64,000 nt of DNA, from assembly GCA_004298155.1 (NCBI GenBank), contig SCRD01000012.1, forward strand, positions 124,001-188,000. The letters run 5' to 3'. This DNA is from Acidobacteriota bacterium (GTDB taxonomy: Bacteria > Acidobacteriota > Terriglobia > UBA7540). Below, piece after piece: positions 6,501-44,181 of this stretch. How positions within the stretch are numbered: position 1 is the first letter of the stretch; each line of letters starts with the position of its first letter. The notes under the pieces were generated by a model that saw nothing but the letters and a program-made list of their open reading frames with translations, did not search any database and was not told the DNA's origin. Made by a program: the position numbers and the translations under genes.

Positions 6501-6810
6501 CCGCCAGTTCGATAGCAAGGTTCAACGCGGTCTGGCCGCCCACCGTGGGCAGGATGGCATCGGGACGCTCACGGGCAATGATGGCTTCCAGATACTCAGT
6601 TGTCAGGGGTTCGACGTAGGTGCGGTCGGCAAATTCCGGATCGGTCATGATCGTGGCTGGATTGGAGTTGACCAGCACGACCTCATAGCCGTCGGCCTTG
6701 AGAGCTTTGCAAGCCTGCGTGCCAGAATAGTCGAACTCACAGGCCTGGCCGATTACAATCGGCCCGGAACCAATTATGAGAACCTTGTGGATGTCAGTAC
6801 GTTTGGGCAT
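3559..6810 (-). CDS. carB: Carbamoyl-phosphate synthase, large subunit
   Basis: A 1083-residue protein, normal length for CarB. It has the duplicated ATP-grasp architecture: an N-terminal half beginning with [20 protein letters not shown], a second half opening with [20 protein letters not shown] near residue 555, and an MGS-like allosteric domain in the last 140 residues. It makes carbamoyl phosphate from bicarbonate, ammonia from CarA, and two ATP, for pyrimidine and arginine synthesis. It lies 71 bp downstream of carA and directly upstream of the DapA-like gene. No anomaly is seen. Confidence 0.98.
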
Positions 6811-6881
6811 TGCATCACTTCTAACTTGTCAATTGCAAATCAACATGCGTTATAGGTCGTCGCCGGGCTCCGCTGTCCGTT

Positions 6882-8015: not shown

Positions 8016-8174
8016 TCGTTCTCCGTCCGGAGACTGCTGGATCCCTGTTGCGCGCTTCTATTCAACTGGCTCATGTCACCCGGATGATATATTTCAAGAG
8101 TCCCCAATGGCAATTCCATGTGATGAATCCAAGTCCGTGAAAACATTTTCAACTTGCCCACACGGTTCGCCAGC

Positions 8175-8756
8175 CTAATGCAACAAGCCCGCGTCACTGA
8201 GAGGCCAATAGGCAAAGACTGCCTTCCCGTAGATGAATTTCCGTGCAACCCCTCCCCACTTGCGGCTGTCGTTTGATACATCCCGATGATCACCCAGCAC
8301 GTAATAGTGGTTCTGAGCCACATGGACGGAACGGCACGTCTCGTAGTCCATATAGGCCGGCAGGATATAAGGCTCGCTCACTCGCTTGCCATTAACAAAA
8401 ACCTGGCCGTCTCTGATGCTCACCCAGTCCCCTGGCAGCCCGACAACCCGCTTAATAAAGGATTCAGCAGGATCCAGCGGGTAGTGGAACACGATAATGT
8501 CGCCACGTCGGATGGATTCAACATGGTAGGCAAACTTGTTGACAATAATCCGCTCATGGTTCTTCAGCAGCGGAAGCATGCTGTTCCCTTCAACCTGTAC
8601 CGGCTGGTAAAAAAGCAAAAGGACAGTCACGGCCAGCAACGAGGAAAGGACCATATCTCGCAGCCAGTAGCGCCTCCCAAAAAATGCTCGCAGTCTGCCC
8701 GCACGAACAACAGGCACACTGGGAATGCAACTGTCTCGAATATGCGCTTCCTGCAT
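8175..8756 (-). CDS. lepB: Signal peptidase I
   Basis: A 193-residue type I signal peptidase, which cleaves signal peptides of secreted proteins at the outer face of the inner membrane. A single N-terminal transmembrane segment (about residues 35-52) is followed by the catalytic serine in EGNSMLPLL and the catalytic lysine in FIKRVVGLPGD; the later LGDHRDVSNDSRKWG box is also conserved. Length is typical of short, single-anchor family members. A TATAAT-like -10 lies 16 bp upstream of the start. The divergent glycosyltransferase gene begins about 105 bp away. Confidence 0.95.
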   Translation of the reverse strand: MQEAHIRDSCIPSVPVVRAGRLRAFFGRRYWLRDMVLSSLLAVTVLLLFYQPVQVEGNSMLPLLKNHERIIVNKFAYHVESIRRGDIIVFHYPLDPAESFIKRVVGLPGDWVSIRDGQVFVNGKRVSEPYILPAYMDYETCRSVHVAQNHYYVLGDHRDVSNDSRKWGGVARKFIYGKAVFAYWPLSDAGLLH

Positions 8757-8771
8757 CGCTTAGTAACCTAG

Positions 8772-8777
8772 ATTATA
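8772..8777 (-). promoter_or_regulatory. Candidate -10 box for lepB
   Basis: On the minus strand this reads TATAAT, 15-20 bases before the lepB ATG. No convincing -35 hexamer is seen at the usual spacing, so it is supported only by the -10 match and its position. Confidence 0.35.
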
Positions 8778-8860
8778 TACCATAAAGCTCGGGACAGATT
8801 CCATACACTGACAAACACAGGGTCTGTCACCTGAGTGAATGATGGTAGAATACCGCTCTC

Positions 8861-9592
8861 ATGCACGCAATTCAGATGCGTCACACCTATGCTCTCATTA
8901 TCCCCGCCCGGAATGAATCAGAATCCATTCGCAGTGTTTTGGAGCGTGTCCCGCATGGACTAATTTTCCAGGTTATCGTGGTGGATAACGGAAGCGTGGA
9001 CCGAACGGCTGAGGTTGCTGCCGCTGCTGGAGCGGAAGTCGTCAGTGAATCCGCACGCGGATACGGCAGGGCTTGCATGAGCGGCTTACTCCAGGTTCAC
9101 CCCTCTGTTACTGCCATTGCTTTTATGGACGCAGACTTTTCGGACAACCCCGAAGATCTGGCGCGGATGGTTATCTGCTTTAATGAAAACCAATGGGACC
9201 TGGTGGTGGGTTCACGAGTCCTTGGCAGTCCGGAGCTGGGATCACTTACGGCACTGCAGCGTTTTGGAAATTGGCTTTCGACACAGCTCATCGCCATTGT
9301 CTGGCACGTGCAGTTCACCGACCTCGGTCCCCTGCGCATCATTCGCCGCGATTCCCTGGCACGACTGAACATGCGTGACATTACCTTCGGCTGGACCGTG
9401 GAGATGCAGGCACGTGCAGCGCAACTTGGGCTCAGGGTGTGCGAACTTCCCGTCAGTTACAGGCGGCGTTTGCACGGCCAGTCGAAAGTTTCCGGGACCA
9501 TTTGCGGAAGCCTTCGCGCCGGAATAAGAATCCTTTGGACAATTCTGTGGTGCTGTCTTTTTCCGCTGGAGGCCTCGTCGCCGAAGGGGTAA
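8861..9592 (+). CDS. Family 2 glycosyltransferase (dolichol-phosphate mannosyltransferase-like)
   Basis: A 243-residue GT-A fold glycosyltransferase. It opens with ALIIPARNESESIRSVLERV, continues with VIVVDNGSVDRT (nucleotide binding) and has FMDADFSDNPEDL, the DxD-type metal and sugar-nucleotide motif. It resembles DPM1/DPG synthase-like enzymes that transfer a sugar to polyprenyl phosphate, without the C-terminal membrane domain of some relatives. A second in-frame ATG at 8876 (MRHTYALIIPARN) is an equally good start; neither has a strong Shine-Dalgarno, and a TAGAAT -10-like box at 8846-8851 would give a very short leader. Confidence 0.85.
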   Translation: MHAIQMRHTYALIIPARNESESIRSVLERVPHGLIFQVIVVDNGSVDRTAEVAAAAGAEVVSESARGYGRACMSGLLQVHPSVTAIAFMDADFSDNPEDLARMVICFNENQWDLVVGSRVLGSPELGSLTALQRFGNWLSTQLIAIVWHVQFTDLGPLRIIRRDSLARLNMRDITFGWTVEMQARAAQLGLRVCELPVSYRRRLHGQSKVSGTICGSLRAGIRILWTILWCCLFPLEASSPKG

Positions 9593-9740
9593 AGGAATCG
9601 GAATGTCCCGAACAAAAGCAGCGGCCAGCCGCAGGCTTCATTGGTAGGTAATCTTTCTTGGGTTGCTTTTTCGGCGTCTGTACTGTTACAAATTTTGGCG
9701 GATCTTCTCTTCCCGGAGTGAAAGCACCGGAACTATTAAA

Positions 9741-10466
9741 ATGAACAGACTATCCATGCTCCAAACTCTTGCGCTGACGGGAATAGTCTGCACGGGCATC
9801 ACTCTTCCTGTTTTCAGCCAGAATACCTCCACCAGCAGCCTATCGAGCTCGAAAGCGTCTCCGCAGTCTTCTCCCGACATGGCAGAACCCTACTGGACCC
9901 GTCACGGCAGGTTCACATTTGGCGTGCAATTCGGGCTTGGACTTGAAAATAATATCCCCCACAACATTTCACACATTAATTTTATTTTTGCCGCACCACA
10001 GATCGGGATCATTGCCTGGGATTCCCCGCACTCACGCCTTCCAGTGAAACGCTTTGAGGTGATCAGCCAACAGATGCTGGGTGGGTCTGTACATCCTGGG
10101 GGAAGCCTGGTCGGAACGTCCCTAGTGATGCGCTTTGGGTTCAAACCGATGGGCCGGGTAGTGCCCTACCTCGATGCGGGGTCCGGTCCTGTGCACACCA
10201 CCATCGATGATAATGCTCCCGAAATCACAGGTCACACGCAGTTTCTCTCGCAAGGCGGCGTGGGGCTTCAGTACTTTGTAAGCGCGCAACGAGCCCTGGT
10301 TTTTGAATACCATTACTTCCACATGTCAAACGCCGGACTCCAGCAGCCGAACCACGGCTTTAACGGCAGCATGTTCACCGTTGGTTTCCGCTGGCTACGT
10401 CGGCCATCCCACAGTACCGTGGGAACGCAGCACCCCAGCCGATTCCTTCTTCCGCACTTATGGTAG
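9741..10466 (+). CDS. PagL-like lipid A 3-O-deacylase (acyloxyacyl hydrolase)
   Basis: A 241-residue exported outer-membrane beta-barrel protein. An N-terminal signal peptide (MNRLSMLQTLALTG to about residue 26) is followed by a low-complexity Ser-rich stretch and a barrel domain. The C-terminal FEYHYFHMSNAGLQQPNHGFN segment matches the PagL active site, with the H-x-S-N arrangement supplying the catalytic His and Ser. PagL enzymes remove the 3-O acyl chain of lipid A and so remodel the outer leaflet. I chose the ATG at 9741 because it starts a clean signal peptide; the frame is open 26 codons further upstream. It is downstream of the glycosyltransferase and convergent with dnaJ. Confidence 0.8.
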   Translation: MNRLSMLQTLALTGIVCTGITLPVFSQNTSTSSLSSSKASPQSSPDMAEPYWTRHGRFTFGVQFGLGLENNIPHNISHINFIFAAPQIGIIAWDSPHSRLPVKRFEVISQQMLGGSVHPGGSLVGTSLVMRFGFKPMGRVVPYLDAGSGPVHTTIDDNAPEITGHTQFLSQGGVGLQYFVSAQRALVFEYHYFHMSNAGLQQPNHGFNGSMFTVGFRWLRRPSHSTVGTQHPSRFLLPHLW

Positions 10467-10587
10467 TTTTCATGATTTAGACGTAAAACGGCGGCAGGCT
10501 TGCTGAAGCTGGCACAACAGAGGCTTTAACACCGCGTCGAAGATATGTTCGCATTTCTGCGGTAGACTTTCATAAGATCTTAGGGGG

Positions 10588-11790
10588 TTAACCGAAGACG
10601 TCTTTGACTTTTTCGGAGGATCCGCGTTCCACAGGTTTGTTATCGACTTCGATGGAGGGAGCCAGCGATTCGAATGCCCGGCGTTGCTCCCGCGACAGCC
10701 TGTGAGGAATCACGACGTCAACCAGAACGTAGAGATTGCCATGCCCGCGCCCATTCAAAACGGGCATGCCATAGCCGCGCAGTCGAAACACAGCCCCCGG
10801 CTGGGTCCCTTCAGGAATCTTCATCTTCTGCGGTCCCCGTAACGTAGGAACTTTGATGTCTGTTCCCAAGGCTGCCTGGGTTATGGATAGAGGAATCTTG
10901 ACGTAAAGATCTTCGCCCCGGCGCTCAAAATAGGGATGAGGACGCACATTTAGGACCACATAAAGATCTCCCGGTGGGCCTCCGTGGCGCCCTGCCTCCC
11001 CTTCGCCCGAAATGCGCAGCCGGGTGCCGTCATCCACGCCCGCCGGAACCTTAATCCCGAGAACCTTTTCACGCCTTACGCGCCCTTCACCCTGGCAGTC
11101 GGGGCAGGGGTCGCGATTCACCTGGCCTGTGCCACTGCACTGCGGGCAGGTCCTCGAAACAGTAAAAAATCCCTGCGAAAAGCGCACTTGGCCGCGCCCG
11201 CCGCAAGCAGGACAGGCGGACATCTGAGAACCATTTCGTGACCCGGAGCCATGGCAGCTTGCGCAACTATCACTGCGGGGAATTTTAATCTTGGTGTCGA
11301 GTCCAGAAGCGGCCTCTTCGAAAGATATCTCCATTTCATAACGAAGATCAGCCCCGCGCTCAGCGCGAACACGGCGTCTTCTGCCCTGGCCAAAAAGATC
11401 TTCCAGGTCGAAGAAAGATCCGAACAAATCCTCGAAGCCGGAGAAGATCGTTGACGAGAAATCGGGTGCTCCCGCCCCGGTGCCGCCCACGCCGGCAAAC
11501 CCGAAACGGTCATACGCAGCGCGCTTGTCTGGATCAGCAAGCACGCTATAGGCTTCCGTGATCTCTTTGAAGCGCTCCTCAGACTCTTCTTTGTTGTCCG
11601 GATTGCGGTCAGGGTGGTGTTGAAGCGCCAGACGGCGGTAAGCGCTTTTGATTTCCTGGTCCGTAGCTCCGTTGCTAACTCCCAAGACTTCGTAATATTC
11701 CCGCTTCTGGTTCACGCAACCTGCCTCGTCAAGTTTTGGTCCATTCTTTGCAGCGCTCTCAACAAGCGTGACCGTCCGGCCCTTTCTCAT
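10588..11790 (-). CDS. dnaJ: Chaperone DnaJ
   Basis: Co-chaperone of DnaK. The J domain (YYEVLGVSNGATDQEIKSAY, with HPD in LQHHPDRNPD) is followed by a Gly/Phe region, four zinc-binding CxxCxGxG-type repeats (CASCHGSG, CPACGGRG, CPQCSGTG, CPDCQGEG) and the C-terminal substrate-binding domain. From the ATG at 11790 the protein has 400 residues with about 30 residues before the J domain. A GTG at 11715 preceded by GAGGCAGG would give a more usual 375 residues; the start is therefore uncertain. It follows grpE by 9 bp and ends the hrcA-grpE-dnaJ operon. No dnaK is present here. Confidence 0.96.
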   Translation of the reverse strand: MRKGRTVTLVESAAKNGPKLDEAGCVNQKREYYEVLGVSNGATDQEIKSAYRRLALQHHPDRNPDNKEESEERFKEITEAYSVLADPDKRAAYDRFGFAGVGGTGAGAPDFSSTIFSGFEDLFGSFFDLEDLFGQGRRRRVRAERGADLRYEMEISFEEAASGLDTKIKIPRSDSCASCHGSGSRNGSQMSACPACGGRGQVRFSQGFFTVSRTCPQCSGTGQVNRDPCPDCQGEGRVRREKVLGIKVPAGVDDGTRLRISGEGEAGRHGGPPGDLYVVLNVRPHPYFERRGEDLYVKIPLSITQAALGTDIKVPTLRGPQKMKIPEGTQPGAVFRLRGYGMPVLNGRGHGNLYVLVDVVIPHRLSREQRRAFESLAPSIEVDNKPVERGSSEKVKDVFG

Positions 11791-31965: not shown

Positions 31966-32439
31966 TCAGCCAGCGCGGCGCCGGTAGTCCTGGATAGCCT
32001 TTTCTGTTTCGCGCTTGATGGTGCGGCTTCTCTCGGTCTCGCGCCGGTCGTATACCTTTTTCCCTTTGGCAAGGGCGAGCTCGCATTTGATCCTGTTCCC
32101 TTTCAGGTAGAGGCGGGTGGGAACCAGGGTCAGGCCCTTTTCCTGGGTGCGGGAAGTCAGTTTATGGATCTCCTGCCGGTGCAGCAACAGGCGCCGCTCG
32201 CGAAGGGGATCGTGGTTCAGGTAGCTCCCGGAGCTGTAAGTGCTGATGTGGCAATTCACCAGCCAGACCTGTCCGCCCTTCACTGCCGCGTAGCTGTCTT
32301 TCAGGTTCACTTTCCCTTCGCGGATGGACTTGACCTCCGTGCCTTGCAATTCCATTCCAGCTTCAAATTTTTCAAGGAAATGATAGTAATGGGCAGCCTG
32401 CCGGTTGAGGGCAAAATTCTTCATTCGAGCTTCATCCAT
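31966..32439 (-). CDS. smpB: SsrA-binding protein SmpB
   Basis: A 157-residue SmpB, which delivers tmRNA to stalled ribosomes. Diagnostic stretches are NFALNRQAAHYYHFLEKFEA, GMELQGTEVKSIREGKVNLK, SGSYLNHDP, and the basic C-terminal tail KGKKVYDRRETERSRTIKRE. The ATG at 32439 has AAGGTGG about eight bases upstream; the frame is open to 32559. I looked for the tmRNA gene in the adjacent non-coding stretches and did not find one. Confidence 0.96.
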   Translation of the reverse strand: MDEARMKNFALNRQAAHYYHFLEKFEAGMELQGTEVKSIREGKVNLKDSYAAVKGGQVWLVNCHISTYSSGSYLNHDPLRERRLLLHRQEIHKLTSRTQEKGLTLVPTRLYLKGNRIKCELALAKGKKVYDRRETERSRTIKRETEKAIQDYRRRAG

Positions 32440-32792
32440 CCTGCTGCCCACCTTGCTGCTCCCTCGGCGTATTCGGCTAGAAATCACCATGTTAACACAG
32501 ACTTTCCGCCGACTTCCGCGGAGCGGCTGCATCGAAAGGCCGGGATGGAGAAACCTCACTTGTGCCGTAATCGTCCTTAGATCGTGGTATAACGTAGCTG
32601 TGAGCGGGGCCGGGGTAGCTGCAATTTGTCACCAGGTTGTAAAAGCTTCGCTATGATAGAATGAAATCGTTGCTATTGCTGTGGTGCGTCGGGTAGATTC
32701 AATATCTGGGGTACAACTCCGGGCTTGGCAGTCACATCCTATCCTACGAGATCCGCCAGCGGCCAAGAGTAGGGCCCGGGCAAAGGTAATTG
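32440..32792. other. 350-bp divergent region between smpB and the TonB-domain gene
   Basis: No gene seen. AT-rich segment near 32635-32665 contains TATGAT and TAGAAT boxes in the plus direction that could serve the TonB-domain gene, but -35 spacing is poor. Confidence 0.4.
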
Positions 32793-34088
32793 ATGCCAAT
32801 TATTGATACCCAAGTTGGTCCTGCCAGGAGCCATTCAAACAACGGGTCCAGCAACTCGACGCGCGAGGACTTTACTTTCACCATACCGGAATCCCCCGGC
32901 CTTCTTTCATCTCTCCGTGAAAACCTTCGCGAATGGCGCCGGACATCGAGATTGAGGGTTCCCGCCGGGTACGCCCGTGACGAGGCGGTCCTTCCCGTCA
33001 CGGAAATGCGGCCATGGTACCGCGACTTTGGGAAGCAGATCGGGTCGCTATTCGAAAAACCGACTGACCCGATCGGAATTTTTAACCGCAGGCAGGAAAA
33101 GAAGCGCGCGGCGTGCGGACTCGCGGTTGCCATAGCGGGTGGAGGCTTTGCATACTGGCTCACCGGTCAGAATTTTCTCGCCGACCCGAAGATGATCGCT
33201 CTGGGGGCGATTGGCGGGTATGTTGTGGGAGAAACCCTCGGAATCTTCGCGTTCAAGAAGCGCGAATATCCGCCCGACATCTGGCAGGATTACCAGCTCC
33301 AGCGGGCTTCATGGGTGAACTCCGTCCTGGTCCATGCAGTGGTAATCCTGGCCCTGATTTTGCCGTATTACATCTCCCAGATGCTTCACCCAATGAAAAG
33401 CAACGTCCAGGTAACAGATATTTCGCCTCTCCTGCTCCAGATGCCGCCCTCTGCCAACAAGGCAGGCGGTGGTGGCGGTGGCGGCGCCCGCACTCCAACG
33501 CCCCCTTCAAAGGGTAAGGCGCCTTTATTCTCGAAGACACAGATGGCCCCGCCGGAAGTTACCATTCCCAAGGTCCAGCCGATCCTGCCCGTGAAACCTA
33601 CTATCATTGGGCCACCTGAAATGAAGCTTCCCGACATGGCGCAGAACGCTCAATTTGGTGACCCGCTCCAGGGCGTCCCCGGACCGCCTTCGACCGGGCC
33701 GGGCTTCGGTGGAGGAATCGGTACGGGCCAGGGGACAGGGGTCGGATCGGGTCAAGGCGGAGGTTTCGGCCCCGGCCAGGGTGGAGGTGCGGGCGGCGGA
33801 CTCTTTAGCGTGGGCGGCAACGTCAGCGCCCCAATCCCCATCTACAAGCCTGAACCTCCTTATTCCGAGCAGGCGCGCAAAGCCAAGTACCAGGGCACAG
33901 TGGTCCTTTGGATCGTGGTGGATGCGGCAGGTAATGTGACCGATGCGCAGGTGGTCAAACCTCTCGGCATGGGTCTCGACCAGAACGCCGTTACCACCGT
34001 CAAGACGTGGAAATTCAAGCCGGCCATGCGCAACGGGGGCCCCGTGCCGGTCAAAGTTATGGTGGAAGTCAGCTTCCGACTGTTTTGA
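32793..34088 (+). CDS. TonB C-terminal-domain protein with extended N-terminal membrane part
   Basis: A 431-residue protein. The N-terminal 90 residues are soluble and charged, then come two hydrophobic segments (AACGLAVAIAGGGFAYWLTG and MIALGAIGGYVVGETLGIFAF) and the usual TonB-type anchor (WVNSVLVHAVVILALILPYYI, about residues 171-191). A Pro-rich spacer and a striking Gly-rich linker (about residues 287-330) lead to a TonB C-terminal domain (PEPPYSEQARKAKYQGTVVLWIVVDAAG ... WKFKPAMRNGGPVPV). TonB transfers proton-motive energy to outer-membrane receptors; the added membrane segments are atypical. AAAGG precedes the ATG. No ExbB/ExbD adjacent. Confidence 0.85.
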   Translation: MPIIDTQVGPARSHSNNGSSNSTREDFTFTIPESPGLLSSLRENLREWRRTSRLRVPAGYARDEAVLPVTEMRPWYRDFGKQIGSLFEKPTDPIGIFNRRQEKKRAACGLAVAIAGGGFAYWLTGQNFLADPKMIALGAIGGYVVGETLGIFAFKKREYPPDIWQDYQLQRASWVNSVLVHAVVILALILPYYISQMLHPMKSNVQVTDISPLLLQMPPSANKAGGGGGGGARTPTPPSKGKAPLFSKTQMAPPEVTIPKVQPILPVKPTIIGPPEMKLPDMAQNAQFGDPLQGVPGPPSTGPGFGGGIGTGQGTGVGSGQGGGFGPGQGGGAGGGLFSVGGNVSAPIPIYKPEPPYSEQARKAKYQGTVVLWIVVDAAGNVTDAQVVKPLGMGLDQNAVTTVKTWKFKPAMRNGGPVPVKVMVEVSFRLF

Positions 34089-34330
34089 CGAGTTTTTTCC
34101 CGCTGCATTTCTCTTCCTGACAATTCCGATTACGGGAGGATCCCCTGCGCCGTACCGCGTACCCTGCCTCGATGAAGCTCATCATGACTCGCACCAGCGT
34201 TTGAAATGACTTCTAAAAATTTAGAGACAAGGCTGTAATAGGTGGCTGCGGTAGTCTACCGGCATTCTTGCAGCCTCTGGGTCCGGCACGCCCGCCTGTT
34301 TGGGTGGGACAACAAAATCGGAGTGTACAA

Positions 34331-35638
34331 ATGCGACGCTTATCTCTTCGTCTATCGCTGGCGGCGGTTTCAGTTTTCGGATTTGCGCTCCCGACCGTTT
34401 GTCAGACCCCTGCTTCGAGTGCGGACCAACCCTCGGAGGAAGCCGAGATTCTGGTACTGAAAAGAAAAGTGGTCGAGCAGGACCAGCGGATCAATCAACT
34501 TGAGCAACAGGTCCAGGCCCTGCTGGGCCAGCAGAAAGCGCCCACAAATCCGGCCGGCAGTGAAAGCTCCAGGCCGGCGGAAAGCGCCGGCAGGGCGCGT
34601 TCGCCTGTCGTGGTGAGTTCTACCGTTGAAAGCGCGGCGGCCGTGCAGAAACCACAACCGCAGCCGGAGAAAACCTTCCGCACGCTACTGTCCCCCATCC
34701 ACTTCGGCGGCAATGTTTATCTCTACCAATACGTGCCGCTCGGCATTTCCGGCGCGCATCCCAAGTTTGAGTTGTATGCATTTTCAGCGCTGGTGGACGG
34801 GCAGAAAGGGCCGTGGGGGTTCCACGCTGATTACCGCTTTCGTACCACAAAGCTCCGCAGCTTCTTCCCCGGCAACACCTGGCTGCAGCAGGGTTACGTC
34901 CGATACCGGACGTCCTACGGGGAGTTCAAGGCAGGCAGCTTCTACCGGCGCGTCGGCATCGAGTGGGATGATTCCTTCTTTGGCAACATTCAATATTTTG
35001 ACGGTTTCAAGCTCGATCCGGAGTTTGGCGTGGGGTTTGAAGGTTCACACGAACTTGCGGGCCGCCTGAATGCGGAATATTCAATGCAGTACTTCTCTGC
35101 CAACGCGCCCGTCAACGGGTCGCTACCGGGCCGCGACTTTGTGTCCGAACCAGGGGCGCGAGCCAAAAACGACGTGACCATGAGGTTCGCGCCAGTCTGG
35201 CACTTCAGCAAGTCGACGTCACTGAACGTGGGAGGATCGTTTGCCCACGGCACGATCGAGCGCGACACGGGGCCCCACAACCAGCGCCGGCAGGCCGCAG
35301 CCGATGCAACCTTGCAGCTTGGCTCGCTGCTCGCCTATGGCGAAGTTCTGCGCCAGACGGTCAGCGGCCAAGTCATTTTGCCGCCGCAGGATGCCACCTA
35401 TACTCTTGAGGGCATCCGCTGGGCGCGCGGGCGCTACCAGCCACGGCTGAATTACAGCCAGGCGAATTATCATGGCCTCAACGGCAGGCGGGAATATATC
35501 CTGCAGCCCGGCATCAATATCCGGCTGGCTGACAATCTGACGTTCATCTATGAATTTGACTTCTGGCGCGAACTTTCGGTGATGAAGCCGACGACTGTTG
35601 ACCGAAGCTTGAACCTGGTTCTTCTGTACCATTTTTGA
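34331..35638 (+). CDS. Outer-membrane beta-barrel porin with N-terminal coiled coil
   Basis: A 435-residue exported protein: signal peptide (MRRLSLRLSLAAVSVFGFALPTVC), a coiled coil with heptads (EAEILVLKRKVVEQDQRINQ, residues about 38-70), a Ser/Pro-rich linker, then a barrel with alternating aromatic strands ending in LNLVLLYHF, whose terminal Phe is the usual outer-membrane assembly signal. The architecture recalls phosphate-selective and DcaP-like porins. It is 101 bp upstream of the MFS gene, in the same direction, with paired hairpins between them, so it may work with the transporter, but they need not share a transcript. Confidence 0.8.
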   Translation: MRRLSLRLSLAAVSVFGFALPTVCQTPASSADQPSEEAEILVLKRKVVEQDQRINQLEQQVQALLGQQKAPTNPAGSESSRPAESAGRARSPVVVSSTVESAAAVQKPQPQPEKTFRTLLSPIHFGGNVYLYQYVPLGISGAHPKFELYAFSALVDGQKGPWGFHADYRFRTTKLRSFFPGNTWLQQGYVRYRTSYGEFKAGSFYRRVGIEWDDSFFGNIQYFDGFKLDPEFGVGFEGSHELAGRLNAEYSMQYFSANAPVNGSLPGRDFVSEPGARAKNDVTMRFAPVWHFSKSTSLNVGGSFAHGTIERDTGPHNQRRQAAADATLQLGSLLAYGEVLRQTVSGQVILPPQDATYTLEGIRWARGRYQPRLNYSQANYHGLNGRREYILQPGINIRLADNLTFIYEFDFWRELSVMKPTTVDRSLNLVLLYHF

Positions 35639-35739: not shown

Positions 35740-37146
35740 ATGGCAATTCGACCTGAACAACAAGACAAAACCCCAGCCGGCATCGGCGAGCGCCTGGACC
35801 GTCTGCCGTGGACCGGTTTCCATTCGCGCGTGACGCTGGCGCTCGGCATCGGCTGGCTGCTCGACGCGTTTGAAGTCAACGTCATCGGCAACGTGCTCGG
35901 CATTCTGAAGAAGCTCTGGCATGTCACCGACGTCCAGGCTTCGGCGCTGGTCACCGTGTGGTTAGTCGGCATCATGATTGGCGCACTGCTGTTCGGATAT
36001 CTCGCCGACCGGTTCGGCCGCCGCAAGCTGTTTATCCTGACCCTGCTGCTTTACTCAGGCTTCACTGTGGTCTCGGCACTGTCGCCGGGCTACTACTTCT
36101 TCATGGTATTCCGCTTCCTGACGGCTATCGGAGTGGGTGCGGAATACTCCGCTATCAATGCCGCCATCGGAGAGATTATTCCGGCGCGGTTTCGCGGCCG
36201 CGCCAACGCGACGGTGATGAACTTCTGGCCCGTGGGATCCATCCTCGCGGCGCTGCTCAGCCTTTACTTCATCAACCTGCTGCCGCCATCGGTTGGCTGG
36301 AGGTTTGCGTTCGGTCTTGGGGCCATCGTCGCCTTGTTCACCATCTGGGCGCGAAGAACCCTGCCGGAATCGCCCCGCTGGCTGCTCGGGCGGGGCCGCC
36401 GCCAGGAAGCGTTGCAAGTGATGCAGCAAATCGAGTCCGGCACGGGCCATTTTGATTTCACTGATTCACAGGCGCGGCGAGCAGACACAATCTCGGCGGG
36501 GTTTTTCAGCCAGGTTTGGCTTCTGGTGCGCGAACATCCGGGGCGGCTGGCGTTGGGTTCGCTTCTCGATTTTTCGGAGGCCGCAGGTTATTACGGCATC
36601 TTCGCCTTCCTGCCGCTGGTTGTATTGCCGCATGTTAACATTTCAGATGAAAGGGTTCCGTGGTTCTTCCTGATCGGCAATCTGGGAGCGGTTGCGGGTG
36701 GCGCGCTGGCTGCCGTGGCCCTGGACAAGGCCGGACGCAAGTGGACGGTGACGCTCTTCTATCTGCTGGCCGCGGTTTCCATGCTGGTGATGGGCGCGGC
36801 AACGCTCCACCGGAGCGCAGAAGGAGTGCTGGCCGCGTTCGTGGTGGTAAATTTCTGCGCGACCGGAAGCTGGGTGTCCGCCTATCCGACCTTTTCTGAA
36901 ATCTTCCCGACCCGATTGCGCTCAACAGGCATCGGATTTTCCGTGGCGTTCGGCAGGATCGGCGCAGCCATCTCGCCTCTGGTCCTGGTGGTGCTTGCCG
37001 AGCGTGCGTCTGTCATGGACGCTTTTGCGGTGCTTGGCGGGTTTTATGTGCTGGGCGTTGTGGGCATGATACCGTGGATCCTCTGGGGGCCTGAGGGGCG
37101 CGGCAAGGCGCTTGAAATTCTGGGAGGAGAAAGCATCGAGGCATGA
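35740..37146 (+). CDS. MFS transporter (sugar porter-like)
   Basis: A 468-residue inner-membrane protein with twelve predicted helices. The loop 2-3 MFS signature GYLADRFGRRKLF (about residues 82-94) and its second-half counterpart AVALDKAGRKWTV are clear; ALGIGWLLDAFEVNVIGNVL in helix 1 resembles the sugar/aromatic-acid porters. The substrate is unknown. The start at 35740 (MAIRPEQQ) is chosen over a TTG at 35719. Its TGA stop overlaps the radical SAM start by 4 bp (ATGA), so the two are translationally coupled. Confidence 0.88.
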   Translation: MAIRPEQQDKTPAGIGERLDRLPWTGFHSRVTLALGIGWLLDAFEVNVIGNVLGILKKLWHVTDVQASALVTVWLVGIMIGALLFGYLADRFGRRKLFILTLLLYSGFTVVSALSPGYYFFMVFRFLTAIGVGAEYSAINAAIGEIIPARFRGRANATVMNFWPVGSILAALLSLYFINLLPPSVGWRFAFGLGAIVALFTIWARRTLPESPRWLLGRGRRQEALQVMQQIESGTGHFDFTDSQARRADTISAGFFSQVWLLVREHPGRLALGSLLDFSEAAGYYGIFAFLPLVVLPHVNISDERVPWFFLIGNLGAVAGGALAAVALDKAGRKWTVTLFYLLAAVSMLVMGAATLHRSAEGVLAAFVVVNFCATGSWVSAYPTFSEIFPTRLRSTGIGFSVAFGRIGAAISPLVLVVLAERASVMDAFAVLGGFYVLGVVGMIPWILWGPEGRGKALEILGGESIEA

Positions 37147-38063
37147 ATTTTCCTGAAGTCGCACTCACCCACCTCGACAACCTCTGGCTCCAGGTGAGCG
37201 GAACTCTTTGCAACATCGCCTGCGCGCATTGCTTTAACAACAGCGGCCCCAATGTGAGAAATTTTGGTTTCCTCAGCATGGAAAGAGTGCGCACGGAGAT
37301 TGAAAGCGCGGCCCGCGCGGGCGTGAAGGAAATATTCTTTACCGGCGGCGAGCCGTTTCTGCATCCAGCCCTGCCGGAGATGCTTGCCTTCTCGCTGAAA
37401 CGCGCGCCCACAACCGTCCTGACAAATGGCATGCTCATTAACGACCGCATCGCCGGCCGACTGGCAGCGATCGAACAATCGGCGAAGTATTCGCTTGAAA
37501 TTCGCGTCAGCCTGGATGGTTACACGGAAGAGATGAATGACGCCATCCGCGGGCAAGGCGTCTTTCGCAGCGCGCTGGCTGCCGTTCAGCGCCTCAGTCA
37601 GCGCGGACTGCTGCCGCTGGTCACCATCGTCCGCAACTGGGGCGATGATGCAGAGCTTGACGCGCTGGCTGCTTTTTCCGCGATGCTGCGCGAGGCGGGA
37701 TATGCCCGGCCGCGAATCAAAGTCCTCCCTGCCCTGCCGCTGGGCCGCGAGCTTGAGCGCCGCCCCGGCATCAATACGCAAGCATTATTGAGCGAAGATC
37801 TACTTGAAGGGTTCGACCGCGATCTGCTGATGTGTTCCAATTCACGGGTCATCACGGACCGCGGTGTCTGGGTGTGCCCGCTACTGGTGGAAAAGCCAGA
37901 CGCGCGACTGGGAGAAAGTCTTGCCGACGCCCGCCCAGGTTTTACGCTGCGCCACAACGCCTGCGTCACCTGCTACCACTACGGCACCATCTGCGGCAAC
38001 GTCAGCGCGCTGATCGAGGGCCCCGCGGTCCAGGCGGACTCGGGCGCGGGCAAACTCTCATGA
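37143..38063 (+). CDS. Radical SAM enzyme with C-terminal cysteine cluster motif
   Basis: A 306-residue protein. The radical SAM [4Fe-4S] motif is C-NIA-C-AH-C in GTLCNIACAHCFNNSG (residues about 21-36), followed by the SAM-binding FTGGEPFLHP and a barrel with TVLTNGMLI and EIRVSLDGY. Near the C-terminus five more cysteines (MCSNSR, VWVCPL, ACVTC, TICGN) form a SPASM/twitch-like auxiliary cluster region. Such enzymes modify peptides or small molecules. It overlaps the MFS gene by 4 bp upstream and the metallophosphoesterase by 4 bp downstream. The substrate is unknown. Confidence 0.85.
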   Translation: MNFPEVALTHLDNLWLQVSGTLCNIACAHCFNNSGPNVRNFGFLSMERVRTEIESAARAGVKEIFFTGGEPFLHPALPEMLAFSLKRAPTTVLTNGMLINDRIAGRLAAIEQSAKYSLEIRVSLDGYTEEMNDAIRGQGVFRSALAAVQRLSQRGLLPLVTIVRNWGDDAELDALAAFSAMLREAGYARPRIKVLPALPLGRELERRPGINTQALLSEDLLEGFDRDLLMCSNSRVITDRGVWVCPLLVEKPDARLGESLADARPGFTLRHNACVTCYHYGTICGNVSALIEGPAVQADSGAGKLS

Positions 38064-38842
38064 AACGACTTGCCCTGTTCGGCGGCATCTACAACAACCA
38101 TCTGGCGCTTGCAGCGGCGATTGAGGACGCGCGCCGCCGCAACGCGGATGACTTCTACTGCCTCGGCGACCTGGGCGCATTTGGACCCTATCCCGACCGG
38201 GTCTATCCCATCTTGCGCGAGCACAGCGTCCAGTGCATTCAGGGCAATTACGACAATTCGCTTGCCGGCGGGCTGGCCGACTGCCAGTGCGGTTACACCG
38301 ATCCGCGCGACAATCACTTTGCGCGCGTCAGCTACAACTACACGTTCAAAAACACCTCGGCAGACAACAAAGCATGGCTGCGCACCTTGCCGGAAACTCT
38401 CAGCCTTGAAGTTGATGGCCGCCGTGTTCTCTTGTGCCACGGTTCCCCGCGCCGGATGAATGAATTCCTCTGGGAATCCACCAGCCCCGATTCTTTTCTC
38501 GAACATCTACTCGACCAGTCGAATGCTGACGTTATCTGCGTGACGCATACGGGCATCAAATGGCATCGCGAGCTTCCCGCGAAGCGCCACTTCATCAACG
38601 TGGGAGTGCTGGGCCGGCCGGAAAACGACGGCGCTACGAATGTCTGGTACACGCTGCTGGCCATCAATGACGGCGAAGTGAAGGTGGAATTCGTCCCCGT
38701 CGATTACGATTTTGAAAAGCTAGCCGGCGAAATGCGGACGGAAAACCTGCCCGCGGAGTTCATAGAAACCATTCTCAGCGGCTGGTGGACCACCTGCCTT
38801 GAAGTCCTTCCCCACAAGGAGCGCGCCCGCGGGCGATTCTGA
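38060..38842 (+). CDS. Metallophosphoesterase-like protein with altered metal motif
   Basis: A 260-residue calcineurin-like phosphoesterase fold. GDLGAFGPYP (motif II), GNYDN (motif III), LLCHGSP (motif IV) and VTHTGIKWHR (motif V) are visible. Motif I, normally D-x-H in a DIHGN context, reads FGGIYNNH, so the first Asp and His ligands are missing. A CQCGYTDPRDNHF segment near residue 77 adds two cysteines. I recall a group of close relatives with the same FGGIY start, so the change is probably a family trait rather than decay. ATGA overlap with the radical SAM gene makes it the third member of the coupled unit. Confidence 0.82.
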   Translation: MKRLALFGGIYNNHLALAAAIEDARRRNADDFYCLGDLGAFGPYPDRVYPILREHSVQCIQGNYDNSLAGGLADCQCGYTDPRDNHFARVSYNYTFKNTSADNKAWLRTLPETLSLEVDGRRVLLCHGSPRRMNEFLWESTSPDSFLEHLLDQSNADVICVTHTGIKWHRELPAKRHFINVGVLGRPENDGATNVWYTLLAINDGEVKVEFVPVDYDFEKLAGEMRTENLPAEFIETILSGWWTTCLEVLPHKERARGRF

Positions 38843-39709: not shown

Positions 39710-39867
39710 TGCACTCCACCCGCCGCATAACCAATCCCCCTCTTTCCAGGCTTCGAGGCACGACGAGATGGCCCTCCCAACCTCTACGGTCTGCGGCCAA
39801 TGTGTTAGTATCGAAATCTATATCTCAACCAGTTCCCACATCGCATACGCAAAGCGGAAAGGACATT

Positions 39868-40950
39868 GTGCTCAAGATCGGAATTGTCGGCCTCAACATG
39901 GTGGGCAAAACCACGCTGTTCAAGATCCTCACCCGTGCTCGCGGTGACAAGCTGGCAGGTGGCAAGCCTGAAGCCCACCTGGGCGTTGTGAAAGTGCCCG
40001 ACGCGCGCCTCGACTGCCTGGCGGGAATGTTCAATCCGAAAAAGCTCGTCCATGCCAGCATCGAGTACGTGGATACGCCTGCCAGCGTCATTCAATTGGC
40101 GCGCACGGGAACGCAATCCGCCGCCTTGAAGGAAATGGACGCGCTCGTACACGTGGTGCGCGTCTTTGAGGACCCTGCCATTCCTGCTGAAGGCGGTAAC
40201 GTCGACGCCAGGCGCGACATCGAATCCGTCGAGCTTGAGCTGGTGCTTTCCGATCTGGCCATCATTGAAAAACGCCTCGAGAGGCTCGACAAAGACATCA
40301 AGAAACAGAAGAACCCTGCGCTTGAGAAAGAACATCAGGCCTTGCTGCGGGCCAAACTGGCGCTCGAGGCGCAGACCCCTTTGCGTGAAATGGATTTTGT
40401 GGCCGATGACGAGCGCGCTTTGCGCGGGTTTACTTTTCTCTCCATCAAACCGATGCTCTACGTGCTGAATCTGGGAGAAAAAGACGCGCCCCGGGCCAAC
40501 GCTGCGGAAGAGTTTGCGCACCAGGCCGGACTGAAGCAGCGCCCGCGCACGGCCGTTACAGCCGTCTGCGGTAAAATTGAAGAGGAGCTTTCCGAGTTGG
40601 GTGACGAAGACTCCGGGGAATTCCTGGCCAGCTACGGTTTAAAGGAATCAGCCATTTCGAGGCTGATCCGCTCCAGCTACCAGTTGCTGGGCCTGATTTC
40701 ATTCTTCACCGTGGGCGAGGATGAGTGCCGCGCCTGGACCATTCGCGAGGGTATGACAGCGCTCGATGCCGCAGGCGCAATCCATTCTGACATCCAGCAT
40801 GGCTTCATCCGCGCCGAGGTGATTCCCTATCAGGACCTGATGGATGCCGGCGGCTTTGCCGAGGCCCGCACCCGCGGCACGCTGAGACTCGAAGGCAAGG
40901 AGTATCTGGTCCACGACGGAGAGATTGTGCACTTCCGGCATTCGGGCTGA
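39868..40950 (+). CDS. YchF/Obg-like P-loop NTPase with TGS domain
   Basis: A 360-residue TRAFAC-class NTPase related to YchF. The P-loop is GLNMVGKTTLF (YchF proteins have the NxxGKS/T form and often prefer ATP), switch and Walker B regions include YVDTPAS; a coiled-coil insert (LERLDKDIKKQKNPALEKEH) and a C-terminal TGS domain (ISFFTVGEDECRAWTIREGM ... GEIVHF) are typical. The DTPAS sequence replaces the usual DxxGL. Roles proposed for the family are ribosome-associated. A GTG at 39868 with AAAGGA five bases upstream is used; the frame stays open to 39640. The ZIP and IscU-like genes follow closely. Confidence 0.88.
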   Translation: MLKIGIVGLNMVGKTTLFKILTRARGDKLAGGKPEAHLGVVKVPDARLDCLAGMFNPKKLVHASIEYVDTPASVIQLARTGTQSAALKEMDALVHVVRVFEDPAIPAEGGNVDARRDIESVELELVLSDLAIIEKRLERLDKDIKKQKNPALEKEHQALLRAKLALEAQTPLREMDFVADDERALRGFTFLSIKPMLYVLNLGEKDAPRANAAEEFAHQAGLKQRPRTAVTAVCGKIEEELSELGDEDSGEFLASYGLKESAISRLIRSSYQLLGLISFFTVGEDECRAWTIREGMTALDAAGAIHSDIQHGFIRAEVIPYQDLMDAGGFAEARTRGTLRLEGKEYLVHDGEIVHFRHSG

Positions 40951-40979
40951 GGGCCACTCCGGAACTTCAACCAACTACC

Positions 40980-41708
40980 ATGTTATTCGCCATTGAGATC
41001 AGCCTGGTGCTCGCGGTGGCTGCAGGAGTTGCCAATCTATTTGGCGCCTCCATCGTTTCGGCGAGGGCCTGGAGCCGGCCGTTCCTTGCATACTTTCTTG
41101 CGCTGGGTTCCGGCTTTATGCTTGCCACCGCCATGACGGAGATGATCCCGGAAAGCCTGCGCCTGGCACCGGTTGAAGGGTCAGTGCTTATCCTGGCCGG
41201 TTACCTGATTGTTCACATCTTTGAGCATGTGTGGCCCGCTCATTTCCACTTTGGCGAAGAAACCCACAAAGAGGAATTTGCCCGCAGCCGCGTGGCCTAC
41301 ACGGCGCTGGGCGGCCTGCTGGTCCACACTTTTTTCGACGGCGTGGCCATTGTCTCTGGCTTTATGGTCTCAACCTGGCTCGGCACGGTCATTTTCGGCG
41401 CCACCATTCTGCACAACGTCCCCGAAGGTTTTACGATCTCCTCGGTGATGGTGACGGCGGGCAAGGGCCGCGGCTCAGGCATGAAAGCAGCGGGCGCACT
41501 CGGCATCTCAAGAATTTTGGGAGTTCTCACCATGGGACTGGCACACCGGTGGGTGGCTCTTGGGCTGGCGCTTTCCGCCGGGGCGACGCTTTACGTGGCG
41601 GCTTCCGACCTGATTCCCGAAGTAAATAAGAAGCCGGGCATCAGGATTGCACTCACGGTCGGTGCCGGCGTCGCCCTGGTTGTGGTGCTGAAGACACTCT
41701 TTATGTAG
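40980..41708 (+). CDS. ZIP-family metal transporter
   Basis: A 242-residue inner-membrane protein with eight predicted helices. The binuclear metal-site motifs of ZIP proteins are present: LLVHTFFDGVAI in helix 4 and ILHNVPEGFTISS in helix 5. It probably moves Zn2+, Fe2+ or related ions into the cytoplasm. The first residues start directly in a helix. It lies 29 bp after the YchF-like gene and 7 bp before the IscU-like gene, so co-transcription is likely. Confidence 0.9.
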   Translation: MLFAIEISLVLAVAAGVANLFGASIVSARAWSRPFLAYFLALGSGFMLATAMTEMIPESLRLAPVEGSVLILAGYLIVHIFEHVWPAHFHFGEETHKEEFARSRVAYTALGGLLVHTFFDGVAIVSGFMVSTWLGTVIFGATILHNVPEGFTISSVMVTAGKGRGSGMKAAGALGISRILGVLTMGLAHRWVALGLALSAGATLYVAASDLIPEVNKKPGIRIALTVGAGVALVVVLKTLFM

Positions 41709-41715
41709 GGGCGAG

Positions 41716-42075
41716 ATGTATTCCAACGAGGTCCTGGACCACTTCCACAACCCGCGCAATGTGGGCGAGATTGGTGCGCCAAGCGCTGCGGTGGCGGCCA
41801 GCAACCCCGTCTGCGGCGACGCCATGAAGCTGTGGATTCTGGTCCGCGATGAGAAAGTGTTCGAGGCAAAATTCAAAGTCCAGGGATGCGTTCCGGCCGT
41901 CGCCTGCGGATCATGGCTGACGGAGGCTATCAAAGGAAAAACCATCCCTGAGCTTGCAGCCATCAGCCCCGAACAGGTCGAGCAGCAACTCGGCGGCCTG
42001 CCCGCAGCCTCCCACCACGCCAGCATGCTGGCCGTTGCAGCCCTGCGTGAAGCGCTGGAGAAGCTAAGCCCTTGA
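41716..42075 (+). CDS. IscU/NifU-N-like iron-sulphur scaffold protein, one ligand cysteine changed
   Basis: A 119-residue protein that aligns along its length with IscU: MYSNEVLDHFHNPRNVGEIG, NPVCGDAMKL (first Cys and the Asp), KVQGCVPAVACGS (second Cys). The third ligand, normally in HCSxLA, is Ala here (SHHASMLAVAALREAL), while an extra Cys follows the second ligand by five residues. It may hold a cluster differently or be a carrier or zinc protein. A GGGGCGAG site precedes the ATG, 7 bp after the ZIP gene. No cysteine desulphurase is nearby. Confidence 0.85.
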   Translation: MYSNEVLDHFHNPRNVGEIGAPSAAVAASNPVCGDAMKLWILVRDEKVFEAKFKVQGCVPAVACGSWLTEAIKGKTIPELAAISPEQVEQQLGGLPAASHHASMLAVAALREALEKLSP

Positions 42076-42370
42076 GATATGGCAAACCGAGTAGTTAGGA
42101 ATGCTGCAAGTCAGTATTTGCTGCAGGCTTGGTCCAGGCCCTAATTAACCGGGCGCGGCAGATGGCCAGGGTCAGGCTTGGTCGGATTGGAGCTTGTATT
42201 TATATTTTCAATAACTTACAGCTTTGTGTCTGAACATACCAATTCCTCAAAAATATCGCGATGACAAAAAATTGACCTCAGATTGGGACCTGACCTCCCG
42301 CCAGCTCTTCTTTCAGCTTGCAGGAGAGGTTATAATTGCGGGAACGGGGACGCTAGAAAGAATAGAATAC

Positions 42371-42601
42371 ATGCGCGCCTTGTCGAGCGCCTTATTGATC
42401 GCTGCCGGCTTGACCGGTATCGGTTATATTCTCGAAACCGTCCTGCCGAGTTCATCTGTCTTCACAATCGAATGGCAAACCCAGCAATATCTGATTCCCT
42501 ACAACGTCGCTGCGTTTTGGGGCTGTGTAGCAGTGGGCGCAATCGCAGGCTTTATCCAGGCGATCCGGATGATGCTTCGGGATATGGAGCGTTTGCGCTA
42601 G
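42371..42601 (+). CDS. Putative small membrane protein
   Basis: A 76-residue ORF with two hydrophobic helices (LSSALLIAAGLTGIGYILETV and VAAFWGCVAVGAIAGFIQAI) and a short basic C-terminus. No family recognised. The frame is open to 42224, but the extension has no ribosome-binding site; none is strong at this ATG either. The helices and their charge distribution make it more likely than not to be real. The preceding stretch 42076-42370 shows nothing else. Confidence 0.45.
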   Translation: MRALSSALLIAAGLTGIGYILETVLPSSSVFTIEWQTQQYLIPYNVAAFWGCVAVGAIAGFIQAIRMMLRDMERLR

Positions 42602-42733
42602 GCGGTTCGCAATCGGAAACTGGAACGATTGATTAATGGGCCGATCAAGAGGCGGGAGGCTCCAACGCCCGGGAAAGTTTTGGACCAAAGCACCTCGTGC
42701 GCCCGGCCCCTTCTAACCGCCAAGCCAATACTG

Positions 42734-43360
42734 CTATTCTGCCAGCCAGCGGTAGCTTTCGGGGTCGTCGACGTCGAGCAGGATGCCAGGGTCAGTGACT
42801 TCGACAAATTCCGTCCGGTCGTGGTAGTGGTGAATCAAGGTGTCGGCGCCCTGGCCGGGACCGAGCGACAGGATCTGGCTGAACAATTCCCTGCCCAGCA
42901 AGACCGGATGGCCGTGCTTGCCTCGCAGCTGTGGAACGATAACCGGGCTTCCGGAAGATGTGAAGTATTGGATTAACTTCTGGATTGTATCCACCGAAAT
43001 CGACGGATGATCTACGAGACACAGGAGGGTGCTTTCCGCCCTGCTTTCGCTCAGCCTGCGCAAACCTGCCTGGAGGGATGAGGTCTGACCCAGGCGGTAA
43101 TCCCGATTGACGACGACCTCAACCGAAGTGAGGTCAATGCTCTGCTGGATCAGGTCGGCGTGGTGGCCTAAAACCACAACAACGCGCTGGACGCCCGCAT
43201 CGCGTAGCTGGCAGATAATATTTTCCAGAAAAGTCCGCCCGCGATACATCAGCAGGGCCTTGTCCGTGCCCATGCGGGAAGATTCGCCTGCGGCGAGAAT
43301 TACACCAGCGGTGGCTTGCAGCGAGGGCACATCCCTGTGGGGCGCCAGTGGACGGCTCAT
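42734..43360 (-). CDS. mocA: MocA-type molybdenum cofactor nucleotidyltransferase
   Basis: A 208-residue protein of the MobA/MocA nucleotidyltransferase fold. GVILAAGESSRMGTDKALLMY (residues about 17-37) is the nucleotide-binding loop, followed by VVVVLGHHADLIQ, LGQTSSLQAGLRRL, LLCLVDHPSIS and HGHPVLLGRELF. It probably attaches CMP to molybdopterin to make the MCD cofactor of xanthine dehydrogenase-type enzymes. The start overlaps the end of the XdhC gene by 4 bp (ATGA). No molybdoenzyme genes lie in the window. Confidence 0.88.
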   Translation of the reverse strand: MSRPLAPHRDVPSLQATAGVILAAGESSRMGTDKALLMYRGRTFLENIICQLRDAGVQRVVVVLGHHADLIQQSIDLTSVEVVVNRDYRLGQTSSLQAGLRRLSESRAESTLLCLVDHPSISVDTIQKLIQYFTSSGSPVIVPQLRGKHGHPVLLGRELFSQILSLGPGQGADTLIHHYHDRTEFVEVTDPGILLDVDDPESYRWLAE

Positions 43361-44181
43361 GAAGTTTGGTGCACTCTGGGTTTCCAGGTGAGCGAGGCGG
43401 CAGAGGGAGACACACTTCGGCGCACGGCAATCATTTCCGCCACGATGGAGACGGCAATCTCTTCCGGCGTAAGCGCGCCGATATCGAGGCCCACGGGCGA
43501 GTGGACCCGCTCAAGCTGGTCGCTGGATACGCCGTCTGCAGAGAGAAGCTTGAAGAATTCGGCCAGCTTCCGCTTGCTGCCTACCATGCCGACGTAACGG
43601 GCCTGCGTGCTGGCCGCCCAGCGCAGGCAGTCAAGATCAGCCTTGTGCCCTCGAGTGGCGATCACGATGTAGGAGAGGCCATTGGGCGAGATCTGCGGGA
43701 AAATTTCTTCCCATGGCCCTGCGTGCGTCGCGACAGCAGAGGGAAACCGCTCCTTGTTGGCGAAGGCCTCGCGGTCGTCGCAGACGACGATGTCAAATCC
43801 CGCAAGGCCGGCCACTTTCGACACGTTGAGTGAAACGTGCCCCCCGCCGAACAGATAGAGCGTGGGCGTCGCCATGATCGGCTCAACAAAAATGTCGAGC
43901 GAGCCGCCGCAGACCAGGCCCGTGTCATATTCCGGATTGGCGTTCAGATTAAAATGCAATCGGCGCGGCTTCTCTTCCCGCATCACGTCTTGCGCAACGG
44001 ACCAGACATCCGCCTCAACGCAGCCGCCGCCGACCGTGCCCACAATTGAGCCGTCATCGCGAACCAGAATCTTGGAACATTCGTAGCTGGGAATCGAGCC
44101 TTGAACCTGAATGATCGTAGCAAGCGCGCCCTTGCGGCCTTCTTTCCGCAGCCTGACGATTTCGTTGAAGACATCGCTCAT
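43357..44181 (-). CDS. XdhC/CoxI family maturation factor
   Basis: A 274-residue protein with the XdhC/CoxI N-terminal domain (KGALATIIQVQGSIPSYECSKILV, GTVGGGCVEADVW) and a C-terminal Rossmann domain (LYLFGGGHVSLNVSKVAGLA, VVCDDREAFANKERF, RYVGMVGSKRKLAEFF). XdhC proteins bind and sulphurate molybdenum cofactor before insertion into xanthine dehydrogenase or CO dehydrogenase. Coupled by an ATGA overlap to the mocA-like gene downstream. Divergent from the dehydrogenase at 44418. Confidence 0.9.
   Translation of the reverse strand: MSDVFNEIVRLRKEGRKGALATIIQVQGSIPSYECSKILVRDDGSIVGTVGGGCVEADVWSVAQDVMREEKPRRLHFNLNANPEYDTGLVCGGSLDIFVEPIMATPTLYLFGGGHVSLNVSKVAGLAGFDIVVCDDREAFANKERFPSAVATHAGPWEEIFPQISPNGLSYIVIATRGHKADLDCLRWAASTQARYVGMVGSKRKLAEFFKLLSADGVSSDQLERVHSPVGLDIGALTPEEIAVSIVAEMIAVRRSVSPSAASLTWKPRVHQTS

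Follow-up and report, generated by a model that had tools for sequence, protein, structure and literature searches.

In bacterial natural products, carbon-arsenic (C-As) bonds are known to be formed by S-adenosylmethionine (SAM)-dependent methyltransferases, and larger groups are known to be attached by two radical SAM enzymes, ArsS (arsenosugars) and ArsL (arsinothricin) (PMC12159101). By radical SAM mechanisms, ArsS adds an adenosyl group to arsenic, and ArsL adds a 3-amino-3-carboxypropyl group (PMC12159101, PMC8552651). ArsL is encoded in the arsQML cluster, together with the permease ArsQ and ArsM (PMC8552651). Here, we analyzed a 64,000-nucleotide stretch of an Acidobacteriota genome (assembly GCA_004298155.1, contig SCRD01000012.1, positions 124,001 to 188,000; termed the window), in which the genes for a radical SAM protein (rSAM) and a metallophosphoesterase-fold protein (MPE) lie in a cassette with two transport genes. 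The best explanation as a whole is that rSAM-MPE constitutes an organoarsenical-forming module in place of the arsenosugar enzyme ArsS, to which we assign a probability of about 0.6. An organoarsenic role is probable because arsenic genes neighbor the pair in other bacteria and because arsenosugar genes occupy the same slot in a sister species.

The features of the cassette in the window are as follows.
34331-35638 (34331 being the best start), plus strand: putative outer-membrane porin gene, with a signal-like start, a coiled-coil N terminus, and a C-terminal Phe
35740-37146, plus strand: major facilitator superfamily (MFS) transporter gene (Pfam MFS_1/Sugar_tr, E value of 1e-41 or better)
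37143-37146, plus strand: ATGA stop/start overlap between the MFS and rSAM genes, read in the sequence
37143-38063, plus strand: rSAM gene (Pfam Radical_SAM, PF04055, 4.6e-20)
38060-38063, plus strand: ATGA stop/start overlap between the rSAM and MPE genes, read in the sequence
38060-38842, plus strand: MPE gene (Pfam Metallophos_2, 1.6e-9)

Exchange with arsM-arsS and near exclusion with ArsS

We compared the window, which lies on contig C12 of its own genome (labeled G000), with two genomes of the same genus. The cassette is kept at the same place in G001. In G002, the window flanks (31968-34089 and 39777-43847) align at 70 to 80% nucleotide identity, and between them, where the cassette would be expected, we found arsM and arsS. 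The ArsS of G002 scores 431 bits against TIGR04167 (cut-off, 300), and directly 3' of its gene are 127 bp that match the 3' end of the window MPE gene, stop codon included (81% identity). Given the syntenic flanks and this remnant, the site most likely carried MPE in an ancestor of G002, with arsM-arsS then replacing the porin, MFS, and rSAM genes and most of the MPE gene. The conserved flank of the cassette also contains a MocA-like molybdenum cofactor nucleotidyltransferase gene next to an XdhC/CoxI-type gene (window 42734-44181, minus strand), both named by reading the sequence only.

We then looked into the co-occurrence of rSAM and ArsS. In the window's family (39 genomes), rSAM is present in 12 genomes and ArsS in 12 (9 over the cut-off and 3 partial), and no genome contains both (hypergeometric p of 0.004 or 0.02). 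Across the phylum (396 genomes), rSAM was found in 27 genomes and ArsS in 65, with a single genome holding both versus 4.4 expected (p of 0.044). ArsS was also absent from all 11 further rSAM genomes, Calditrichota and Bacteroidota included. Genomes with rSAM and different genomes with ArsS occur within the same genera (g1 and g81), and families f1, f27, f34, f35, f43, f56, f57, and f70 hold both kinds.

The two systems are also related through ArsM. The ArsM of the G002 ArsS locus is 56 to 65% identical to eight rSAM-linked ArsMs of Acidobacteriota, and in the ArsM tree, ArsS-linked and rSAM-linked proteins interleave in one clade, apart from unlinked ArsMs (32 to 40% identity); the rSAM-linked ArsM of L218 groups with ArsS-linked ones at 98/99. 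Because the two sorts mix in one clade, one kind of ArsM appears to feed either ArsS or rSAM-MPE.

Conserved pair and variable transporters

The initial annotation, made from the sequence of this stretch alone, had noted exact ATGA overlaps at both junctions of the MFS, rSAM, and MPE genes, and we confirmed these overlaps and all coordinates. It had set repeated co-occurrence in distant phyla beforehand as the test of a system, and the rSAM-MPE pair was indeed found in three. The two genes are neighbors in nearly all loci of Acidobacteriota, Calditrichota, and Bacteroidota where this could be checked; in L017, L044, L215, and L221 the contig end precedes the partner gene, so that adjacency is not visible. 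The exceptions are L048, where a PHO4 gene lies between them, and L125 (same contig as L040), where they are convergent neighbors. The pair was present in 7/40 Calditrichota genomes and is rare in Bacteroidota (1/345 sampled genomes). In the rSAM tree, the clade of the window groups with Calditrichota and Bacteroidota (100/98), separate from the majority of other Acidobacteriota, and the tree of MPE has broadly the same form, which suggests that the pair moved horizontally. In one Acidobacteriota clade (L199, L201, L203, L204, L207, and L208), a gap of ∼230 to 315 bp separates rSAM from MPE; in L188 (the same gene as in L207), a short open reading frame starting MANRIPEDAVEKARRAAERQKLTRHRGLATWGEKLVPLERF lies in the frame beyond the rSAM stop and possibly encodes a conserved small protein.

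The gene order porin-MFS-rSAM-MPE recurs within the window's family, and the window's own genome has a second copy of the set on contig C24 (L119), with 65 to 77% identity. The duplication of the whole four-gene set and its conservation across the family argue that the grouping in the window is more than chance. The three-gene unit originally proposed is real, its recurring part being rSAM-MPE; MFS was rejected as a core component since other lineages carry other transporters instead. The relatives of the window have MFS and Bacteroidota an SSS symporter; some Calditrichota, as well as L202, have a PHO4 permease; and L200, L205, and L221 combine an ABC permease with a periplasmic SBP_bac_6 protein. 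The best NCBIfam model for the window MFS, TIGR00895, gave 209 bits (cut-off, 418.55). From these gene contents, the conserved core of the cassette is taken to be the rSAM-MPE pair, with a transporter that changes.

The protein encoded just upstream, first described as an outer-membrane porin, had no Pfam, NCBIfam, or PDB match. The gene is there and travels with the cassette: homologues (59 to 69% identity) precede MFS in the window's family and in the own-genome paralogue, and a 36% homologue lies within the ABC-importer version of the operon (L200). Its identity as a porin is plausible in view of its C-terminal Phe, its signal-like start, and its association with the cassette in the window's family. 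We regard the porin and MFS as accessory uptake/transport parts.

Arsenic-gene neighborhoods

An ArsM-like gene lies within ∼5 kb of the pair in 8/26 more distant Acidobacteriota loci (L197, L199, L201, L202, L204, L207, L208, and L218) and in Calditrichota L048, L049, and L051, giving 11 loci. By our own estimate, a span of ∼10 kb in a 5-Mb genome holds a given single-copy gene by chance in ∼0.2% of cases. The Acidobacteriota operon ArsMs tested scored 324 to 353 bits against NF040538 (arsinothricin-type ArsM; cut-off, 500) and ∼205 bits against the generic ArsM model (cut-off, 263); with both scores under the cut-offs, they are a subtype that no model fits. The Calditrichota operon ArsMs tested scored ∼202 bits with the generic model, below the curated cut-off, and the ArsM of L221 is of the generic type.

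Other genes of this sort recur. In L046, L052, and the paralogue L119, the pair has TIGR04283/TIGR04282 neighbors over the cut-off. The region 3' of the paralogue encodes a TVP38-type membrane protein, an over-cut-off FAD oxidoreductase (746 bits with the PRK06370 subfamily), and a glycosyltransferase scoring 237 bits with the "arsenosugar biosynthesis" model TIGR04283 (cut-off, 182). A similar GT2-TVP38-FAD oxidoreductase group was found in the ArsS-positive genome G059 (L137). A recurrent FAD oxidoreductase, FADc6, accompanies the pair in 17/26 distant Acidobacteriota loci and in Calditrichota L047, L048, L049, and L051.

Together with the in-place swap, the near exclusion with ArsS, and the interleaved ArsM tree, these neighborhoods make it very likely that the rSAM-MPE pair is tied to arsenic. 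We consider it improbable that the pair modifies another small molecule or a peptide, its arsenic neighbors being bystanders in stress/metal islands. The closest folds of rSAM, which are peptide maturases and the decarboxylase BlsE, would suit such a role, as would the acyl-ligase/acyltransferase proteins 5' of the pair in L209 and L211-L215 and the absence of adjoining arsenic genes in the window. The repeated ArsM linkage across phyla, the in-place swap with its MPE remnant, and the shared ArsM ancestry argue against it. The upstream protein (891 to 896 aa; AMP-binding, phosphopantetheine, and acyltransferase parts) is encoded directly 5' of rSAM in families f29 and f70; the AMP-ligase cluster also held unrelated ligases farther off, and only this pair-adjacent protein was retained. 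Speculatively, some products in these families may be lipids, made with this ligase/carrier/acyltransferase.

Operons with the special ArsM have no porin and no MFS, SSS, or ABC importer (PHO4 is sometimes present), and operons with a porin or one of these importers have no special ArsM. This alternation, read off the tables and confounded with phylogeny, suggests two supply routes to one conserved two-protein step: synthesis of the methylarsenical by the operon itself, or else its import or its synthesis by an unlinked ArsM. PHO4, a member of the phosphate-permease family, could admit arsenate. The importers also bear on salvage, in which the porin and importer would take up arsenosugars or methylarsenicals for rSAM-MPE to dismantle, the arsM-arsS swap then exchanging a consumer for a producer. 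Uptake-type transporters do occur without the special operon ArsM in the window's family (MFS), in Bacteroidota (SSS), and in f43/f89 (SBP_bac_6 ABC importer). Salvage is nevertheless unlikely, given that in other operons ArsM, with which synthesis begins, and glycosyltransferases are encoded right next to the pair, and that replacement accounts for the exclusion with ArsS better than consumption does.

The window's own genome contains further related genes. A third accessory set, without the cassette, is found in L147 (G000:C8:88000-106000, at 5427-10756) and encodes a 346-aa rSAM-like protein, TVP38, an FAD oxidoreductase, and a 636-aa TIGR04283-type glycosyltransferase/radical SAM fusion, followed by an asparagine-synthase-like gene. 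At 4958-5764 of L119 (G000:C24:306000-325990), 3' of the paralogous cassette, the radical SAM domain of this fusion survives only as its C-terminal part, probably a decayed copy. Six radical SAM genes lie within 12 kb at G000:C3:23803-35164, on a contig that also holds the over-cut-off ArsM of this genome (C3:18915-19730).

Sequence and structure of rSAM

We then analyzed the sequences and predicted structures of the two core proteins. rSAM has 306 aa and belongs to the radical SAM superfamily, with a CX3CX2C motif in the Radical_SAM domain (C23, C27, and C30, invariant in 49). Its twitch-like C terminus carries five further Cys (C231, C245, C274, C277, and C284). All eight are invariant in 48 to 49 of 49 homologues, the single missing row being a fragment, so the five-cysteine region noticed at first is real and invariant in all complete homologues. 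The predicted model (predicted local distance difference test [pLDDT] score of 85.5) resembles twitch/SPASM enzymes, and its closest solved folds are SkfB (6efn; Z of 20.8, 3.6 Å over 242 residues) and BlsE (7vob; Z of 19.4, 3.8 Å over 244 residues).

Placement of rSAM in a characterized family with a different substrate would have spoken against the initial annotation, and scores fell below the NCBIfam cut-offs. The top match, the Rv1681 family (NF049973), was rejected at 103.5 bits, far under the cut-off of 380 and over residues 14 to 174 only. ArsS (TIGR04167) was rejected at 61.6 bits (cut-off, 300; residues 10 to 155 only), and so was ArsL, which has ∼428 aa and three conserved Cys versus 306 aa and eight invariant Cys in rSAM. 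Pfam families pointed to no substrate. By these comparisons, rSAM belongs to no characterized family. Selenocysteine was also rejected, as the in-frame TGA flagged in many homologues is an ordinary stop codon just after CRT/CKNF in the translation. In L025-L034 (mostly family f8, same class), most loci encode proteins of 637 to 887 aa with an N-terminal radical SAM domain 32 to 34% identical to the window rSAM.

Sequence and structure of MPE

MPE is the better conserved of the pair (mean column identity of 74%, versus 62% for rSAM). Its predicted model (pLDDT of 82.9) has a calcineurin-like fold, with SapH as the best match (3qfm; Z of 25.9, 2.6 Å over 240 residues). The altered motif I of the initial annotation proved both real and invariant: SDIHGN is replaced by GG[IVL]Y[SN]N, so that the Asp and His ligand positions are G9 and Y11 in 47/47 homologues. 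The last His of the GHXH motif, aligned with SapH, is G165 in 47/47. A complete two-metal site (DXH, GD, GN, H, GHXH) was therefore rejected, and MPE, like rSAM, matches no characterized family. The ligands D37, N63, H127, and H163 are retained and invariant, as are C75, C77, and C246; C34 is found in 44/47 homologues and C126 in 33/47. The chemistry of MPE has probably changed from the two-metal type, because one half-site was lost under such constraint, and the retained thiols would suit a thiophilic ligand.

The SapH-like fold and the four invariant ligands would also be compatible with a one-metal phosphodiesterase that removes phosphate after rSAM has acted on a nucleotide or phosphosugar. 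This scheme, which could operate with or without arsenic and so overlaps the other explanations, has a low probability in our estimation: three canonical two-metal ligand positions are invariantly G9, Y11, and G165, and the conserved Cys are an unusual addition. The proposal that the molecule is phosphorylated found no support, as it rested solely on the metallophosphoesterase label and MPE lacks three ligands of one metal.

Proposed function

We infer a methylarsenical substrate, C-As bond formation, and a role for MPE in the following scheme. The operon-encoded ArsM would supply a trivalent methylarsenical; in the window's lineage, it would come from an unlinked ArsM or be imported via the porin and MFS. 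An ArsM over the cut-off was found in 10/12 rSAM genomes of the family, a count made on rSAM genomes only. rSAM would add a further carbon group to it, probably by forming a C-As bond from SAM or another small donor. MPE, which retains a one-metal site and conserved thiols, may bind or process the thiophilic product or an intermediate. Many operons also encode TIGR04282/TIGR04283 glycosyltransferases and FAD oxidoreductases, which would complete the molecule. We lean toward an ArsS-like role for rSAM-MPE, taking the place of ArsS. We rate a little short of even the possibility that bacteria evolved a second route to complex organoarsenicals independently, one whose C-As bond is made by a radical SAM enzyme other than ArsS and in which a phosphoesterase that lost half its metal site and gained Cys now binds or processes arsenicals; 5'-deoxyadenosyl transfer specifically is a more tentative proposal. 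The original suggestion that a modified small molecule is synthesized or salvaged and transported fits this scheme, and the evidence points specifically to arsenic, which had not been suspected.

Several observations weigh against an organoarsenical-forming module replacing ArsS. No arsenic gene, ArsM included, adjoins the cassette in the window itself. G367 carries both rSAM and ArsS, and the exclusion p values are modest and ignore phylogeny. The "arsenosugar" names of TIGR04282/4283 presumably rest on association with ArsS. rSAM resembles ArsS no more closely than it does the mycofactocin or NirJ2 radical SAM proteins, and the hhalign match between rSAM and ArsS is confined to the shared radical SAM core plus the first two Cys of the C terminus. 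The SBP-dependent ABC system and similar importers suit salvage as well as synthesis.

If true, rSAM would be a third C-As radical SAM enzyme, with a constant Cys-rich partner of phosphoesterase fold, in Acidobacteriota mostly without ArsS. The arsenic cycle would be widened and new organoarsenical producers indicated, and MPE would clearly exemplify a metallophosphoesterase turned to a use other than two-metal hydrolysis. In the published literature we found no description of this pair and no paper combining arsenic, radical SAM, phosphoesterase, and arsM, although subscription journals and preprints were largely outside our coverage and a prior description is possible.

Comparison with known systems

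The MPE fold is that of the SapH/PH1004-type metallophosphoesterases (PDB 3qfm, 2gju, 1nnw, and 3rqz) over nearly the full length (Z of 24.0 to 25.9), but MPE, compared with SapH, has invariantly lost the Asp and His of motif I as well as the final His in motif V, and it has gained conserved Cys.

The arsQML cluster shares the logic of a transporter, an ArsM, and a radical SAM enzyme, and the Acidobacteriota operon ArsMs are closest to its arsinothricin-type model, NF040538. It differs in that ArsL is longer (428 aa) with three conserved Cys (PMC8552651), in that the operon has no MPE, and in that ArsQ is related to GntP gluconate permeases, not to MFS.

The ArsM-ArsS module (Synechocystis type) likewise has a small radical SAM enzyme with five C-terminal Cys, spaced CX14C ... 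CX2CX7C in ArsS and CX13C ... CX2CX6C in rSAM. The two systems have in common an ArsM subtype, accessory TIGR04282/4283 proteins, an FAD oxidoreductase, and the same chromosomal slot in sister species. By sequence, however, rSAM is not ArsS; it is accompanied by MPE, which the ArsS loci examined lack save for the G002 remnant, and often by FADc6, which was not seen at those loci.

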